From a virus: a stretch of 39,992 nt of DNA. Location: positions 1-39,992 of IMG/VR virus record IMGVR_UViG_3300025099_000050. One strand, 5' to 3'. The notes under the pieces were generated by a model that was given only the letters and a program-made list of their open reading frames with translations, was not told the DNA's origin and searched no databases. This document shows positions 21,693 to 27,581 of this stretch, piece by piece (the first letter of the stretch is position 1; each line of letters begins with the position of its first letter). The position numbers and the translations under genes were made by a program.

Positions 21693-22045
21693 TGAATTTT
21701 CGGTTTAGTATTTTCACTATTTCGTTTATCTTTCTGCTCGACCAATACTTGTTGCAATTCTTCTTTGTCAATTTGTGGAATCGTAAAAGTATATCTACTT
21801 GACGTGCAGACATCTTCAATTTTTTTGATCGCGACATCTCTAAATCTTTTAGGTATATAATCAGTGAGTTCCAAAGATAACATAATCTTTGAAGTTAATG
21901 AAGTAACTAATTTAATATCTCTAGTTTTTAATTGATAAGATAAGAAGTTAAGAAGAGTGTTGTAATCACTCTTCTTCTCTTCAGGCAATTCTTGCAAGAA
22001 TGCATACATACGCGCAATAAACTCTTTATTGCTCTCCATTTTCAT
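21689..22045 (-). CDS. Hypothetical protein, about 118 aa
   Basis: Not recognised. A longer frame begins at 22114, but it overlaps the TM/AT-hook-like gene by 89 bases; the ATG at 22045 (MKMESNKEFIARMYAFLQEL) or 22039 fits the operon's short-overlap style. The protein is helical and charged; KKSDYNTLLNFLSYQLKTRD and KIMLSLELTDYIPKRFRDVA suggest helical packing. It directly precedes the polymerase (ATGA overlap), so it may be co-produced as an accessory. No motif supports a specific role. Confidence 0.55.
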   Translation of the reverse strand: MKMESNKEFIARMYAFLQELPEEKKSDYNTLLNFLSYQLKTRDIKLVTSLTSKIMLSLELTDYIPKRFRDVAIKKIEDVCTSSRYTFTIPQIDKEELQQVLVEQKDKRNSENTKPKIQ

Positions 22046-22289
22046 GAAGTTTAGAAGTATTCTTTCTTGGTCTACCTCTTTTAGCTTTAGGTTTAGATTT
22101 TGTTCTATTGTCAATAGTAGAAATATCTAACCTATTTTCACTTGTACGTGTAGCACACTCTCTTAAACCTTGTTCTAAATCATACATATAAATCTCAAGA
22201 GATCTATATTGAGATATAGTCATTAAAAGTGTAAACACTGATATGATTATAGCCATAATGGCTAGTACGAACGCTATTGTTGTGCTCAT
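22026..22289 (-). CDS. Membrane-anchored protein with AT-hook-like tail, 87 aa
   Basis: The N-terminus (STTIAFVLAIMAIIISVFTL) is a strong transmembrane segment from residue 2, followed by a short helix (LEQGLRECATRTSENRLDIS) and a basic tail KSKPKAKRGRPRKNTS. RGRP is the core of AT-hook minor-groove-binding motifs. The arrangement suggests a protein that tethers A+T-rich DNA to the membrane, which is inference. It lies upstream of the polymerase gene and downstream of the 95-residue gene with a 5-base gap. Confidence 0.55.
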   Translation of the reverse strand: MSTTIAFVLAIMAIIISVFTLLMTISQYRSLEIYMYDLEQGLRECATRTSENRLDISTIDNRTKSKPKAKRGRPRKNTSKLHENGEQ

Positions 22290-22294
22290 AATAA

Positions 22295-22582
22295 TTAGTT
22301 GATTAAGTTGTTAAATAGTTTTTGAAATCCTTTTTCAGTTACTCCTGTTTTAATAAATCTTATCTCTTCTTGATTGAAGTTAAGATGTGAAATCTCTTGA
22401 GCAGTGTCAGAGTAATAAATCTCTTTTACTGTTTCAAGTGTAATGTTAGAGACACCAAAAGTAACTCCTGAAACACTACATGTACCTAATACTGCTCCAA
22501 TACCATCATTAGATATTGTTACAAAGTAAGCTTGCTCACCTATTTGAGTGACAGTTACATCTTTAGATTGTGGAAACTCCAT
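22295..22582 (-). CDS. Hypothetical protein, 95 aa
   Basis: Not recognised. A beta-rich N-terminal half (TVTQIGEQAYFVTISNDGIG) is followed by a short acidic helical segment ending in KLFNNLIN. The start is the ATG that follows a stable hairpin (22593-22616) downstream of the preceding gene, so it may have its own translation or transcription control. No motif allows a function. Confidence 0.6.
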   Translation of the reverse strand: MEFPQSKDVTVTQIGEQAYFVTISNDGIGAVLGTCSVSGVTFGVSNITLETVKEIYYSDTAQEISHLNFNQEEIRFIKTGVTEKGFQKLFNNLIN

Positions 22583-22592
22583 AATAATAAAT

Positions 22593-22616
22593 GGAGAGCC
22601 TTCGGAAAGACTCTCC
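22593..22616 (-). terminator. Hairpin between two minus-strand genes, possible attenuator/terminator
   Basis: GGAGAG (22593-22598) pairs with CTCTCC (22611-22616) and the stem extends inward through CCTT/AAGA (one G-T pair) to about 10 bp. Read leftward it is followed by a weak T-containing tract (ATTTATTATT), so partial termination after the 162-residue gene is likely. The rightward T tract (TTATTTATTTTT) is stronger, but no rightward gene is present. Confidence 0.55.
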
Positions 22617-22626
22617 TTATTTATTT

Positions 22627-23115
22627 TTAGGCAGATAAATCATCCACTACTTGTGTAACATTTACACCTACTTTGTCATGCGCAATAAGTGTGTCTTCTG
22701 CATTTAAATCAAATGAGATTTCACAATTACGATAGATAGGACGACCACCATTCATTAATATGTCACCGTTAGATGGATTAACTTTAGGTTGTTGCTCTCC
22801 TCCATTCCAAGTTCTTTGCTCGAAAGTTTCAGTGATTAATAGTTTACACTCTTTACCGATAGTAATAGAGAAATCACATCCCTCTGTGATATTATACTTG
22901 TCGATAAATTGCTTAGAAACTGTTTGAAATGCTACTCTACGTTGAATACCATCTCCAACTCCTGGATAACCTTCTAAGAAGAATCCTAATGGATTTGCTT
23001 CAGCTGGCTTCTCTGTTTCTTGACGTAACTGTAACTGAAAGATTTCAGGGTTACGAGTTGCTAAAATTTGCTCAACCGTTACGGGAGCTGTTGCTGTGTT
23101 TGTGTTTTGTTCCAT
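22627..23115 (-). CDS. Hypothetical protein, 162 aa, SSB candidate
   Basis: Not recognised. A flexible Thr/Ala-rich N-terminus is followed by a mixed beta region (NPLGFFLEGYPGVGDGIQRR) and strands such as GCDFSITIGKECKLLITETF, ending in an acidic tail (VNVTQVVDDLSA). Size and tail would fit a small phage SSB or abundant DNA-binding protein, but no OB-fold motif is certain. It follows the 1.4-kb noncoding region directly and has TTAATTAAT upstream of its ATG, so it may share a transcript with the RNA. The putative SSB at 12366 is the rival candidate. Confidence 0.6.
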   Translation of the reverse strand: MEQNTNTATAPVTVEQILATRNPEIFQLQLRQETEKPAEANPLGFFLEGYPGVGDGIQRRVAFQTVSKQFIDKYNITEGCDFSITIGKECKLLITETFEQRTWNGGEQQPKVNPSNGDILMNGGRPIYRNCEISFDLNAEDTLIAHDKVGVNVTQVVDDLSA

Positions 23116-23169
23116 GATAGGATACTTGTTGATTAATTAATAAATGGTTGATATAAAGTTTAATGAATT

Positions 23170-23240
23170 TAACAGAACAGTATAAATTAGGATTACTTTT
23201 TATAAGATGATCAGTCTAACCTAATAATACTGTTCTGTTA
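23170..23240 (-). repeat. Fourteen-bp inverted repeat closing the RNA region
   Basis: TAACAGAACAGTAT (23170-23183) pairs perfectly with ATACTGTTCTGTTA (23227-23240). Inside, ATTAGG (23186-23191) pairs with CCTAAT (23220-23225) after a small internal loop, giving a long rod of about 20 bp. It lies between tRNA-like element 1 and the 162-residue gene, at the 3' end of the proposed RNA. There is no T tract after it, so it is more likely a 3' stabilising or boundary structure than an intrinsic terminator. Confidence 0.7.
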
Positions 23241-23262
23241 GCGATTATGGGAAAACGCTTAG

Positions 23263-23305
23263 TGAAGCACATGAGAATCGAACTCATGTTTATACCATAT
23301 GCTTC
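23263..23305 (-). ncRNA. tRNA-like minihelix 1 (acceptor plus T arm, no anticodon)
   Basis: Minus strand 5' to 3': acceptor strand GAAGCAT, 11-base connector ATGGTATAAAC, T stem ATGAG, consensus T loop TTCGATT, T stem CTCAT, acceptor GTGCTTC, then A in the discriminator position. The acceptor is 7 bp (one T-G pair), the T stem is 5 bp, and there is no room for D or anticodon arms. The connector GG could contact the T loop as G18/G19 do in tRNA. An adjacent 7-bp hairpin (23309-23315 with 23333-23339) has a loop AACGCTT (23320-23326 on the complement) that matches AAGCGTT (complement of 23254-23260) on the other side, a possible pseudoknot around the element. CCA is not encoded. Confidence 0.65.
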
Positions 23306-24357
23306 TTAAAACCAAACACAAGCGTTCAGGACTTGGTTTACGGGCAGCTTTGCATACGCCCACCCATCTAGTTCTTTATGTTTGGTACATAGTACTCTGA
23401 GATTACGAGTACTAATGATGTGTCTTTGATAGGATTATAGCCCGCCAAGGCATTCCCTCTTTTATCCACACTCTTTTGAAGTGTATCACATCAGTGACGG
23501 TTAGTATAGCTAACCACGCTTATCGATAATACCTACTCACACAATAATAAATCTATAATAGAGTAGCGAACCCTAAAACAAATGTTTCTTGTGCGAACAC
23601 CTATACCTTGCGAGTATAAAATGCACTACATTCACCTAAGTGTGTAGTATTAGTCACCTTTCAGCACTATCGTCCACTGTCTTTTGCTTTTTTTTAAGTT
23701 GTTTAGAATCAACTGCCAATTGTTGGGGGAGTGCAGTGGAGATTGCTCACATCCTTTTGAGATGCAAATACAACACTAGCCCATATGATTTGTCAAATCA
23801 CGGTAATTTTAGACATCCCGAAGGACACCTATTTTACTGAACAATACCCATACATAGCTTGACGAGCTAACTCTGAACTTGTTCTACAGATTATTCTTAT
23901 TGGGATTACTCCCGCAACATTAGCTGGCAACTAATGTCACACATTCACTCAGGCGATAGCCCTCTGTTTCAATGTGATATTCTGCTTGCGTAGATTGACC
24001 ATAAATGGCAACACACCAAGAGTATTTCTCCCCTTGATGTGTCTTTAACACATTACTGTGCTTATCGGGCCACGCCCCATATTTTTAATACTTGCTTATG
24101 AACAGAACATAAGACTACATTTAGCAACTACGTCAGTCACTCACGTGTAATGTTAAACACTTTATACGCTAGCACAATGCAGTGCGCATCTGTTTCGCTT
24201 TGCATTCAAAGCGTATCTCTTAGCTGCACGAAAAATATCCTTTCAAAATATTCCTCTATCATCTTAAGCCAAAGAACGCATGCTGTTTCTTCTTTTTTCG
24301 TACTAGTGAACTCACTAGACGTGCGAAAGTCTTGCAGACGTCATACTGCAGCCCTCT

Positions 24358-24399
24358 GAAGAGTAGCAGGAATCGAACCTGCACTAACCATTTACTCTT
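24358..24399 (-). ncRNA. tRNA-like minihelix 2 (acceptor plus T arm, no anticodon)
   Basis: Minus strand 5' to 3': acceptor AAGAGTA, 10-base connector AATGGTTAGT, T stem GCAGG, T loop TTCGATT, T stem CCTGC, acceptor TACTCTT, then C as discriminator. All 7 acceptor and 5 T-stem pairs are Watson-Crick. The T loop is identical to that of minihelix 1, and both connectors share ATGGT. Between the end of this element and the start of minihelix 1 are 1052 bases. An acceptor/T-arm minihelix is a known minimal substrate of bacterial RNase P, so the two could mark processing points; that is inference. Confidence 0.65.
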
Positions 24400-24572
24400 A
24401 ATAATCATTAGGTTAACACTCTAAACCGTTCCTATGGATGGTTCTTATTCACTCATTTTACAAGAGTGTCTTTATTAACATTTAAGGCCTCATAAGTGAG
24501 CTATAAGCTCAAACTGTTTGGCACTACCTAATGTGCAAGGGCTAATCTCTAAGATAACCGCTTGTATTATAA

Positions 24573-24944
24573 TCAGAGACTACATTTAGCCCCTGATTTT
24601 CTGATAATAGCTATAAGATCTATCAATTCTGTCGCAGACATACCATTTGGCAATGTGATAGATAGTTTAGTATTATTATGTTCAACACGCTCTTCACGTG
24701 GTTTTGTAATACTAACACTTTTAGCTGGTAATCTCTTAGCATTGCACAATGTAGTGCGAGCTTTGGTCCAATACTTATTTTTTATACGCTCACCTTTATT
24801 GTTTACGTATGAAGGCATAGTATACCTTTTTGGTAAGTCTTTGATACTTACAGGGAGTTTACCCTTAAAGAATACTCTTTCTATTTGTAGCATTCTTACA
24901 ATCTCTTCTTTGATTTCTAGTGGAGTAGTTAGTTGTCTTCTCAT
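24573..24944 (-). CDS. Hypothetical protein, 123 aa, basic
   Basis: Not recognised. A basic, helical N-terminal half (PLEIKEEIVRMLQIERVFFK, then KGKLPVSIKDLPKRY) precedes a middle KNKYWTKARTTLCNAKRLPA and a C-terminal ITLPNGMSATELIDLIAIIR. The last part resembles a short ribbon-helix-helix-like or helical dimerisation segment. The stop codon lies inside the outermost hairpin of the noncoding region, so gene and RNA may be joined on one transcript. The plus-strand frame over the same bases is a shadow. Confidence 0.6.
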   Translation of the reverse strand: MRRQLTTPLEIKEEIVRMLQIERVFFKGKLPVSIKDLPKRYTMPSYVNNKGERIKNKYWTKARTTLCNAKRLPAKSVSITKPREERVEHNNTKLSITLPNGMSATELIDLIAIIRKSGAKCSL

Positions 24945-25041
24945 AACTTTTTATAGGTTTTAAAGTGAATGGATTAATGTTATTGTCTTTTTTGAATTGT
25001 GCTATTGCTTGTTTAACTGATAAATAGTCTTCTTGTCTCAT
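24865..25041 (-). CDS. Possible small protein, 58 aa
   Basis: An ATG at 25041, close downstream of TAATTAATTAAC, opens a 58-codon frame: MRQEDYLSVKQAIAQFKKDN, then INPFTLKPIKSYEKTTNYST, with a basic tail. It overlaps the next gene by 80 bases, which is longer than usual here, so the real product may be shorter or the frame may be spurious. In favour are the conserved-looking start context (shared with other genes) and the first half that reads like a structured domain. The predicted pseudoknot (25061-25169) forms its 5' leader. Confidence 0.4.
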   Translation of the reverse strand: MRQEDYLSVKQAIAQFKKDNNINPFTLKPIKSYEKTTNYSTRNQRRDCKNATNRKSIL

Positions 25042-25060
25042 AATGTTAATTAATTAGATA

Positions 25061-25169
25061 CTTACATCGAACTCAGTTTGTAACTCTCTTAACCTAAAAT
25101 GCATAGCATTAAAGTCCGAGCGCGTTCCGATGTAAGCATTGTAAGATAGATTAACGAGTTTGCGCTCGG
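25061..25169 (-). promoter_or_regulatory. Predicted RNA pseudoknot in a leader
   Basis: CTTACATCG (25061-25069) pairs with CGATGTAAG (25128-25136) over 9 bp, and CCGAGCGC (25116-25123) pairs with GCGCTCGG (25162-25169) over 8 bp. The pairing order is A-B-A'-B', which is an H-type pseudoknot. It lies 20 bases upstream of the 58-residue reading frame on the minus strand, as a riboswitch or protein-binding leader would. Bases 25042-25223 otherwise hold no gene. Known classes were not recognised. Confidence 0.5.
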
Positions 25170-25223
25170 CGTTTTATTTAACTATGTCTTCTCTGACACG
25201 ACCATAACTCGTGGTGTAGTTAC

Positions 25224-25379
25224 CTAGCTTTTTTTGTTCGGTGTTGGAAGGCCACTCGCATCTTCACCGTTTTCTTCTTCGTGACATTGTTGACAAGTAT
25301 GAAACTGATCACAATTACACGTTAGCTCAGGACTTATGTTGTATAAATCCCAAGCATCTTGTGCATCTTCATAAAACAT
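25224..25379 (-). CDS. Small Cys-rich protein, 51 aa
   Basis: The ATG overlaps the end of the upstream gene (ATGTTTTATGA contains both start and stop). The product MFYEDAQDAWDLYNISPELT is followed by CNCDQFHTCQQCHEEE, with four Cys and two His that could bind a zinc ion, and a polar tail. The coupled start and Cys/His cluster make a real gene likely. Function unknown. Confidence 0.6.
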   Translation of the reverse strand: MFYEDAQDAWDLYNISPELTCNCDQFHTCQQCHEEENGEDASGLPTPNKKS

Positions 25380-25590
25380 CATTTATTGTTTTATATGGTC
25401 CTACCTTAGTCTTAGAATGTATAGAATAATATCTACAAGACTCTGCAGTATTATCTCTATACTTTAAGAACTCAAGTATATTCATATCTGCTTCATCTAA
25501 ACAAATACTGTTTATCTTCTCAAATATTCTTTTAATACTAGTCCAATCTTTATCTAATTGAGCTTTCTTTAATTCGTCGTTAATGTCCAT
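25369..25590 (-). CDS. Hypothetical protein, 73 aa
   Basis: Not recognised. The N-terminus MDINDELKKAQLDKDWTSIK is a charged helix; the second half (CLDEADMNILEFLKYRDNTA, then SCRYYSIHSKTKVGPYKTIN) is mixed. Its stop overlaps the start of the small Cys-rich gene, so the pair is likely cotranslated. Upstream (25591-25811) is another structured stretch with a direct repeat and hairpins. Confidence 0.6.
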   Translation of the reverse strand: MDINDELKKAQLDKDWTSIKRIFEKINSICLDEADMNILEFLKYRDNTAESCRYYSIHSKTKVGPYKTINDVL

Positions 25591-25692
25591 AATCTGTATT
25601 TTAGCTATATTTATAATGTAAGGTTAAATGATTTACTAATGAAAGGTGCTAATGTGTGCGTGTGTTGAGTGGAACACTCTGTAACTCACACT

Positions 25693-25759
25693 ACTACTGC
25701 ACTAAAGCACTAATAGTGCACCATTGAAGGTGTCCACTACTGCACTTTAGCACTAACAG
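25693..25759. repeat. Twenty-four-bp direct repeat in a hairpin-rich leader
   Basis: Copies at 25693-25716 and 25736-25759 match at 21 of 24 positions (mismatches at 12, 13 and 22). Copy 1 also forms the hairpin GCACT-AAT-AGTGC (25707-25719). A 10-bp two-part hairpin (GTGTG/CACAC, GAGTG/CACTC) occupies 25660-25691. The 221-base gap (25591-25811) between two minus-strand genes has no reading frame but is nearly filled with such structure. It could be a leader RNA, a pair of protein-binding sites or an origin-type iteron pair. Confidence 0.6.
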
Positions 25760-25769
25760 CCTTAAAATT

Positions 25770-25805
25770 GAGCCAAGGTGGTACTGTGCTTCACACCTTT
25801 AGCTC
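25770..25805 (-). terminator. Hairpin terminator after the 103-residue gene
   Basis: GAGC+AAGGTG (25770-25780) pairs with CACCTT+GCTC (25794-25805) with a small internal loop, a 10-bp stem. Leftward it is followed by AATTTTAA. It lies 7 bases beyond the stop of the gene at 25812. The short T tract suggests moderate rather than complete termination. Confidence 0.55.
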
Positions 25806-25811
25806 CGAGTC

Positions 25812-26114
25812 TTACTCTGCCACAACAACACGCGACCTATGGTACAACCCAGTTTTCTCAAACTTAGGTTGGTCCTTATAGAACGGCGTATCCTGCGACA
25901 ATTTCTCTATGCGATAACCTTCGTACACTGTACCAACCACCATTGTTTCAGCAATGGCAGTAGCTACAGGTTCGTAAGCTGTTGCAACAGAGAAGTCTGC
26001 TCTAGCGATAACACCAAGCAAAGAACCCTCTTTGACTGCAGTTGTAAACACAACTTGCATCCATTCAGGATTCTTCGTCGGCTTGATGTCCGCTATTCGA
26101 ATCTTGTTTCCCAT
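25812..26114 (-). CDS. Hypothetical protein, about 100 aa, first leftward gene
   Basis: Not recognised. The start is taken as the second ATG (MGNKIRIADIKPTKNPEWMQ); the first, at 26123, adds MPI. The protein is beta-rich with repeated Val/Ile pairs (MQVVFTTAVKEGSLLGVIAR) and a C-terminal KFEKTGLYHRSRVVVAE. Its codons are noticeably richer in G+C than neighbouring genes, which may mean recent transfer or strong expression. It is the first gene leftward of the divergent control region. An OB-like or SH3-like small protein is possible. Confidence 0.6.
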   Translation of the reverse strand: MGNKIRIADIKPTKNPEWMQVVFTTAVKEGSLLGVIARADFSVATAYEPVATAIAETMVVGTVYEGYRIEKLSQDTPFYKDQPKFEKTGLYHRSRVVVAE

Positions 26115-26134
26115 AATTGGCACGGGGCATTCTG

Positions 26135-26161
26135 CTCCCGCAATTTTTAGTGGGGGTTTTT
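26135..26161 (+). terminator. Rightward terminator-like hairpin
   Basis: CTCCCGC (26135-26141) pairs with GTGGGGG (26150-26156), 7 bp with two G-T pairs, loop AATTTTTA, followed directly by TTTTT. It faces rightward although no rightward gene is seen upstream for 20 kb; read leftward it lies in the 5' leader of the 103-residue gene. Confidence 0.4.
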
Positions 26162-26288
26162 CCTGAAGTGGTCCACTAATTCATTTTCGCAAAAAAAATT
26201 TTATAAAGCTTTGATATAAAAAATAAAAATTATATATTGCGCGCACTGTGTGTTTTCTCGATTCATAGTTTTTGGTTTTTTTGGTTGA

Positions 26289-26324
26289 AATACCCCTTTC
26301 GTTCTGAGAGGGGTATTTTTTTTT
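26289..26324 (+). terminator. Strong intrinsic terminator, rightward
   Basis: AATACCCCTTTC (26289-26300) pairs with GAGAGGGGTATT (26306-26317) over 12 bp (one G-T pair) around the loop GTTCT, followed by a run of T residues from 26316 and a second T run. It is a textbook rightward terminator. The leftward tract is not T-rich, so it is not bidirectional. It stands just upstream of the promoter at 26343 and would keep any upstream rightward transcript out of the late operon. Confidence 0.85.
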
Positions 26325-26342
26325 AATTTTTTTTAAAAAATA

Positions 26343-26373
26343 TTGTAGAGGATAGAAATTTTTATTACGTTTG
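26343..26373 (+). promoter_or_regulatory. Bacteroidetes-type promoter for the late operon
   Basis: TTG (26343-26345), a 20-base spacer and TACGTTTG (26366-26373) match the Flavobacterium/Bacteroides consensus (-33 TTG/TTTG, -7 TAnnTTTG). Transcription would start near 26380 and run through a 170-base leader to the first late gene at 26551. This is the only strong match in the divergent intergenic region. The bases 26124-26550 hold no other gene. Confidence 0.65.
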
Positions 26374-26449
26374 CATCCTGGGTTACCAAACCGACACTTC
26401 AATTTTAAAACGATTGTTGGGACAGATAAATAATATTCATCTGATGTTT

Positions 26450-26522
26450 GAGAGTTGAACCAGCAATGACTCTCCCAATTGAAAAGTTAGTGGCGTTTCA
26501 ATTTGGTTTTCTTTTGGCCACT
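26450..26522 (+). promoter_or_regulatory. Leader hairpins, possible attenuator
   Basis: GAGAGT (26450-26455) pairs with ACTCTC (26469-26474). A second stem pairs AGTGGC (26489-26494) with GCCACT (26517-26522), followed by TTTCTTTTAACTTT. The second hairpin plus T-rich tract resembles an attenuator 29 bases before the first late gene. The loop is 22 bases long, so it may instead bind a protein. Confidence 0.4.
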
Positions 26523-26550
26523 TTTCTTTTAACTTTAAAATGTTTTAATT

Positions 26551-26718
26551 ATGGCAAACAACACAATATCTGATGATGAGTATATCAAAGACTTCGCAAA
26601 AAGAGCAGATGAATCTAAGCACGATACCTTTGATTCGTGGATTTTAGATTTAGAAGACCAAGAACAGCCAGAAGCTTGTAGTATTGATAATCCAGATTGC
26701 GAGAACTGCGGATCGTAG
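26551..26718 (+). CDS. Small acidic protein, 55 aa, first gene of the late operon
   Basis: ATG GCA AAC AAC follows TTTTAATT; the frame runs 55 codons and ends three bases before PhoH. The product (MANNTISDDEYIKDFAKRAD and on) is acidic, with a central DSWILDLEDQEQPEA stretch and a terminal CSIDNPDCENCGS holding three Cys (CxxC at the end). The start context matches those of the structural genes (ATGGCAAAC at 36989 for the major capsid protein). Function unknown; it is likely well expressed as the promoter-proximal gene. Confidence 0.7.
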   Translation: MANNTISDDEYIKDFAKRADESKHDTFDSWILDLEDQEQPEACSIDNPDCENCGS

Positions 26719-26721
26719 TAT

Positions 26722-27378
26722 ATGGAAAATAAACAAAAGCGCCAACCCAAAGGGAATATAAAGTTTAATATAACTTTATCCGAGGAGCAGAAACAAGCCA
26801 AAGAAAATATTTTAAATCATGCCTATAGTTTTGTAGTGGGTAAAGCAGGGAGCGGTAAAACTCTTCTTGCTGTCCAGATAGCACTAGATATGTTTTTTAA
26901 AAGACAGTATAATAGGGTTATTATTACAAGGCCTACTGTAGCTACAGAAGATAATGGGTTTCTTCCAGGTGATGAGAAGGAAAAGCTAGAACCTTGGCTT
27001 GTACCTATCATGTCGAACATGCGTAAGGTTTACAATAAACCTGATAAGATTCAAAAAATGATGGATGAAGAAGAGATAGAGCTTGTATCTCTCTCTCATT
27101 TTAGAGGTAGAACATTTGATAGTGCAGTAGTTATAGTTGATGAGTTTCAGAATCTTACAAAAGCACAGCTTAGAATGGCACTTGGTAGATTAGGTAAGGA
27201 TTCTATAATGATCTTTTGTGGAGATAATCAACAGATTGATCTAAAAGATAAATTTAATTCTGCTATAGATGATATTGCTAAGTTAGAACAAAGTTCGTAT
27301 GTTTACAAAATCGTTTTAGAGGATAACCATAGACACAGCGCTATAGATAGCGTTCTTAAACTATTGACAGGATACTAA
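26722..27378 (+). CDS. PhoH-like ATPase
   Basis: A 218-residue PhoH family P-loop protein: VVGKAGSGKTLLAVQ (Walker A, about 40-47), RVIITRPTVATEDNGFLPGD (the family's RP and LPGD motifs), AVVIVDEFQNLTKAQLRMAL (Walker B DEFQN) and MIFCGDNQQID (GDxxQxD). PhoH-like proteins are very common in phages and are related to RNA helicases; their role in infection is unsettled. Its start follows the small gene by three bases and its stop overlaps the next start (TAATG). Confidence 0.88.
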   Translation: MENKQKRQPKGNIKFNITLSEEQKQAKENILNHAYSFVVGKAGSGKTLLAVQIALDMFFKRQYNRVIITRPTVATEDNGFLPGDEKEKLEPWLVPIMSNMRKVYNKPDKIQKMMDEEEIELVSLSHFRGRTFDSAVVIVDEFQNLTKAQLRMALGRLGKDSIMIFCGDNQQIDLKDKFNSAIDDIAKLEQSSYVYKIVLEDNHRHSAIDSVLKLLTGY

Positions 27379-27581
27379 TGAGTGAAATAGAATTTAGAGT
27401 TTGCACTAAAATAACTCAGCGCGCTCAAATAGGTAAAGAGAAGTACGGAACCACAATGGAACGTACAGATCTAACTAAATTACAATGGCTAAAACATGCA
27501 CAAGAAGAGGCTATGGATTTAGCAGTGTATTTAGAAAAACTAATTCAAGAACTAGAAAATGATATTCCAGGAACTAAATAA
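27378..27581 (+). CDS. Short MazG-like protein, 67 aa
   Basis: The sequence EKYGTTMERTDLTKLQWLKH, continuing to AQEEAMDLAVYLEKL, resembles a short all-alpha NTP pyrophosphohydrolase (MazG-like) core: KYG at the first helix and an EEAMD acidic motif (EExxD) on the second. The protein is much shorter than a full MazG domain and may work as a dimer or be degenerate. It lies between PhoH and the nuclease genes, overlapping both. Substrate not predictable. Confidence 0.55.
   Translation: MSEIEFRVCTKITQRAQIGKEKYGTTMERTDLTKLQWLKHAQEEAMDLAVYLEKLIQELENDIPGTK

Follow-up and report, generated by a model that had tools for sequence, protein, structure and literature searches.

Comparison with related phages suggests that, on its minus strand, the stretch 25050-25140 of a virus record of 39,992 bases specifies a small structured RNA of ~80-90 nt that would be a separate module and not one half of a pseudoknot. 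We give this reading, in which the second of two crossing stems (stem B) is coincidental, a probability of about 0.55. The whole stretch of DNA analysed, all 39,992 bases, is called the window here. The element lies in noncoding DNA between the minus-strand ORFs 25224-25382 and 24865-25041. The terminase of the window shares 38.5% identity with its counterpart in Cellulophaga phage phi14:2, a member of the Crassvirales according to its record. In the model that we propose, a long helix P1, which is an earlier described stem A extended and carrying a bulged G, would close a three-way junction with helices P2 and P3, and the element would be a self-contained cassette of a marine crAss-like phage, set in a gap that is rich in RNAs and often reshuffled. 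The conservation of the element, its kept helices, the strand bias of its changes, its lack of a reading frame and its cassette-like flanks are directly supported. The evidence is suggestive of a new candidate among small structured phage RNAs, one with two independent copies. The conserved minus-strand element is probably functional, and it has no match in Rfam.

A terminase search yielded 80 related loci, and blastn matched window positions 25049-25138 in the contig L073 (IMGVR_UViG_3300031705_000002). The two copies differ by one 11-nt indel, one 1-nt indel and five substitutions; the only other stretch of the gap that matched L073 was 66.5% identical over 424 nt. The match stops near the ends of P1. 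Over the 60 nt downstream, similarity was not above that of shuffles, and over the 60 nt upstream it was marginal and reached by 8/200 shuffles, so the 5' boundary of the block is not sharp. The window's own version recurs in a near-identical contig, IMGVR_UViG_3300010153_001393 (99.9% identity over 2002 nt, element unchanged), which is not an independent copy; this leaves two, the window and L073.

We then searched for a third copy. The model R1, built from both sequences, scored 117 bits in the window and 103 bits in L073. It found no third copy in 52 of 87 sources, nor in 11 loci searched unfiltered together with part of phi14:2, and its single match in 28 whole records was that of L073 itself; the best other score, 17.2 bits, was judged to be chance. 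DNA patterns run over viral contigs returned the same two contigs and six others with no further copy, and one pattern run over genome contigs gave 0 matches. The pattern matches in L088 and L089 were coding genes, and L101-L104 had the P1 pattern with the core absent and no R1 score above 12.2 bits. A literature search, mostly without full text, found no description of this element and no pairing of 'crAss-like' with 'GOLLD'.

The features of the element and of its surroundings are collected in Table 1.

Table 1. Positions of the features discussed (window coordinates unless a contig is named)
Feature	Position	Strand	Remarks
Conserved block (whole element)	25050-25140	-	75/80 aligned columns identical to L073:4588-4668
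P1, closing helix	arms 25124-25139 and 25058-25072	-	bulged G at 25127; includes stem A
P2	arms 25112-25120 and 25086-25095	-	8/8 pairs kept, one C-G changed to U-G
Extra hairpin at P2 tip (AAUGC/GCAUU)	25098-25110	-	11 nt missing from L073; from alignment and fold
P3, 4-bp hairpin	25075-25085	-	4/4 pairs kept, invariant; loop of 3 nt in the window, 4 nt in L073
Proposed B arm	25116-25123	-	P1/P2 junction and 5' side of P2
Proposed B' arm	25162-25169	-	upstream of, and outside, the conserved block
58-aa ORF	24865-25041	-	downstream of the element; homologs in L059 (57%, 56 aa) and L073 (50%, 32 aa)
123-aa ORF	24573-24944	-	conserved neighbour; served to find relatives
GOLLD RNA (RF02032)	23394-23783	-	Rfam match, marine crAss-like phage fragment; also in L059
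Mini tRNA-like hairpins, window	24359-24399, 23264-23305	-	flank the GOLLD match on both sides
Mini tRNA-like hairpins, relatives	L073:3563-3604, L059:4818-4859, L075:943-984	-	
Mini tRNA-like hairpins, relatives	L047:1197-1238, L005:4170-4211, L028:2307-2348	-	

A Y-shaped model of P1, P2 and P3 accommodates both copies when they are read on the minus strand, with 26/26 modelled pairs present in the window and in L073. P1 contributes 14/14 of its modelled pairs in each copy (11, and 3 beyond the bulged G), one U-A having become U-G; its outermost pair, 25139/25058, exists in the window only and is C-U in L073. Both substitutions within helices produced U-G pairs, and they do so on the minus strand only. 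Read as plus-strand RNA, the same positions form standard pairs in 23/26 cases in the window and 21/26 in L073, a loss suggesting that the RNA is read from the minus strand. The 11-nt indel corresponds to the hairpin at the P2 tip, and the 1-nt indel falls in the P3 loop. The preliminary description had suggested a search of related phages for compensatory changes. All the changes in helices were one-sided and no pair changed on both sides, since only two independent copies are available.

Folding calculations gave a z score of -3.49 for the minus strand of the window element, with 0/200 shuffles as stable, and a weak -1.94 for L073, with 7/200 shuffles as stable. Among the other non-overlapping 91-nt minus-strand tiles, 9/439 scored as low or lower, indicating that the stability of the element is not exceptional on its own. 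The minimum-energy fold agreed with P1 and P2 save for small register shifts and left out P3, the weakest helix. Elsewhere on the minus strand of the window, the fold predicted for 25663-25753 is very stable (-33.1 kcal/mol, z -4.0) and made of repeated GTGCTAAAGTGCAGTAGT-like motifs.

The element was originally noticed as an H-type pseudoknot, and the pairings given for it were accurate in the window: stem A, CTTACATCG at 25061-25069, pairs with 25128-25136, stem B, CCGAGCGC at 25116-25123, pairs with 25162-25169, and all 17 Watson-Crick pairs are present. The statement that such an arrangement is unlikely by chance did not survive a comparison with shuffles. We counted perfect crossings of stems of at least 9 and at least 8 bp within a span of up to 110 nt, using 200 dinucleotide-preserving shuffles of the window made in 1-kb blocks. 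The window contained 2 such crossings, the shuffles averaged 0.69, and 95/200 of them had at least one. The 8-bp partner of stem B is unremarkable on its own as well: a perfect 8-mer partner for some part of the element arose in 266/2000 shuffles of the 101 nt upstream. With these counts, the crossing arrangement by itself is no evidence. Stem A exceeds chance expectation, being the closing stem of an element that L073 conserves.

Stem B fared differently. The B arm, read on the minus strand, is GCGCTCGG in the window versus GCGCTTGG in L073; the best partner of the latter within 200 nt on either side forms 6/8 pairs, and there is no counterpart of B'. Moreover, stem B competes with the conserved helix P2. 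The pseudoknot proposal was therefore upheld for stem A, which belongs to the conserved structure, and not for stem B, which is absent from L073 and has its B' arm outside the block. Like H-type pseudoknot leaders, the window has two crossing stems, but the second is not conserved. Stem B is probably a coincidental crossing, and the pseudoknot probably an accident of that one stem while the other closes a conserved minus-strand RNA element. A riboswitch-like leader built on an H-type pseudoknot, with A and B crossing, thus seems very improbable, even though the window has both stems without a mismatch.

We also compared the element with known RNA families. Rfam searches over the window element gave no match at the gathering score and none at E up to 5, and the L073 copy had no match, so that membership of a known RNA or riboswitch family of Rfam was not borne out. 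The GOLLD model matched its own stretch of the window and not the element. The standard ARAGORN search of the window reported 0 tRNA genes, and a scan for acceptor and T arms did not report the element. A degenerate tRNA was considered and rejected: the element has a T-loop-like GTTCGAT, but no T-stem forms around it. We know of no match of the core to hammerhead, twister or pistol ribozymes or to integron attC sites.

Coding potential was assessed on the minus strand. The frame 25054-25173 (39 codons, no usual start before its middle) is open and reads plausibly; however, the 11-nt deletion and the 1-nt insertion of L073 disrupt it, 4/4 substitutions within it alter the amino acid, and tblastn of the read-through frame found no relative except the near-identical contig. 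A hidden protein is accordingly the least credible of the readings. A frameshifted or read-through protein over 25054-25263 was also rejected; its frame looks plausible, but it is broken in L073 and has no relatives by tblastn beyond the near-identical contig.

The preliminary description rightly noted a small gene start at 25041 next to the feature. It is that of the 58-aa minus-strand ORF, with the gap upstream of it, and a PHROGs search with this ORF gave no match. The ATG sits in AT-rich sequence, 9 nt beyond the point where the conserved block stops, and the same gene family is also found downstream in L073, as would suit a cis-regulatory leader in which the folded RNA, lacking stem B, would govern the translation or the stability of the 58-aa gene. 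In L073, however, the homolog lies ~500 nt downstream of the element, past a second conserved RNA-like block, and L059 has homologs of both the 58-aa and the 123-aa genes while R1 finds no element beside them or anywhere else in the record. The genes around the element are ordered differently in L073 and L059, and the upstream neighbours differ too, so the element does not keep a fixed position before the same gene. The L073 spacing, the L059 absence and the differing upstream neighbours favour an exchangeable cassette over an obligatory leader. The leader proposal of the preliminary description is weakened by these findings and appears doubtful to us; a local effect on the 58-aa gene may still occur in the window phage. 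A scan of the minus strand over 22000-27500 found no consensus flavobacterial promoter, which counts against the preferred reading of a small structured RNA.

The element could alternatively be a mobile DNA cassette, an inverted repeat recently exchanged between phages, whose conservation reflects transfer and not RNA function. Only two independent contigs carry it, their flanks differ, contigs such as L055 and L057 carry blocks of this gap in permuted order, and the high identity between the window and L073 could stem from recent exchange instead of constraint. On the other hand, on one of the strands the changes obey RNA rules, and loops are where the indels fall, which with five substitutions is suggestive only. 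We consider this explanation unlikely. In the reading that we prefer, the small structured RNA would most likely act as a separate folded module that binds a protein or another RNA, and not as an obligatory leader. We infer that it is transcribed along with the small minus-strand genes, folds in vivo and has some function.

The gap between the gene 22627-23115 and a conserved stretch at 26410-26533 is a mosaic across related contigs. GOLLD and the mini tRNA-like hairpins share the strand and the gap of the element, and this context supports a structured RNA. The GOLLD region of L059 is ~90% identical to that of the window. Five blocks of 62-214 nt, 92.6-100% identical, are common to L055 and L057 but stand in different orders, upstream of a gene of the 22627-23115 type; most lie outside recognised genes, and the largest extends over the end of the 123-aa gene. 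The blocks look as if RNA cassettes had been exchanged. The second conserved RNA-like block, ~190 nt long with a closing stem ACTCTTG...CAAGAGT, occurs at L073:4346-4530 (minus strand) and L002:5665-5855 (plus strand). It is 84% identical between phages (L073; L055/L002) and had no Rfam match at the gathering score in either L002 or L073; the L073 copy had none with E allowed up to 2.

The acceptor-plus-T-arm scan returned 12 hairpins in 20 gap sequences and 0 in 10 shuffled sets. The mini tRNA-like hairpins of Table 1 are ~42 nt long and consist of a 7-bp acceptor, a conserved ATGGT, a 5-bp T-stem and a TTCGATT loop, with no D- or anticodon arm; ACTA or ACAA mostly follows. Covariation was strong in seven compact hairpins (5 distinct), with two-sided changes at 7/12 pairs and 60/60 cells paired, a result that 0/500 shuffles reached. 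Standard ARAGORN misses these hairpins, and its mitochondrial mode made scattered calls, two of which overlap such hairpins on the same strand. Several contigs have one hairpin shortly upstream of the 22627-23115-type gene. Longer tRNA-like sequences of ~150 nt, with a spacer of 114-116 nt between acceptor and T-stem, were observed in L041, L042, L043 and L046 and are possibly interrupted or very long-armed tRNAs. ARAGORN also called a tRNA-SeC (anticodon tca) at L005:5900-5995 (minus strand), in the same gap of a relative. A wider and tentative proposal is that the element represents a new three-way-junction class of phage RNA, a cassette in an exchangeable array of structured RNAs of marine crAss-like phages, where the mini tRNA-like hairpins, with acceptor and T-arm only, might serve as processing signals that free GOLLD and other RNAs from a single long transcript.

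Comparative genomics has brought to light orphan structured RNA motifs, which are conserved and intergenic and rest on many sequences with covariation. The element resembles them as a conserved structured intergenic RNA and differs in having two sequences. It also resembles GOLLD RNA, a structured RNA of phages that is likewise noncoding and occupies the same strand of this gap; GOLLD is giant, whereas the element is ~85 nt, lies 1.3 kb away and has no match to the GOLLD model. Phage tRNA islands near GOLLD and ROOL are described in one report (PMC12286853), and they are similar in that small structured RNAs cluster beside GOLLD. The window differs from the islands as described there in having minimal tRNA-like hairpins and orphan RNAs and no tRNA by standard ARAGORN.

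If the element is not real, the case advises caution, since a sequence as long as a whole window will commonly contain perfect crossing stems. If it is real, crAss-like phages would have a new small RNA motif, and the gap beside GOLLD would be a hotspot of exchangeable structured RNAs. Such a gap would offer a compact, testable setting for the roles of phage RNAs, GOLLD included.
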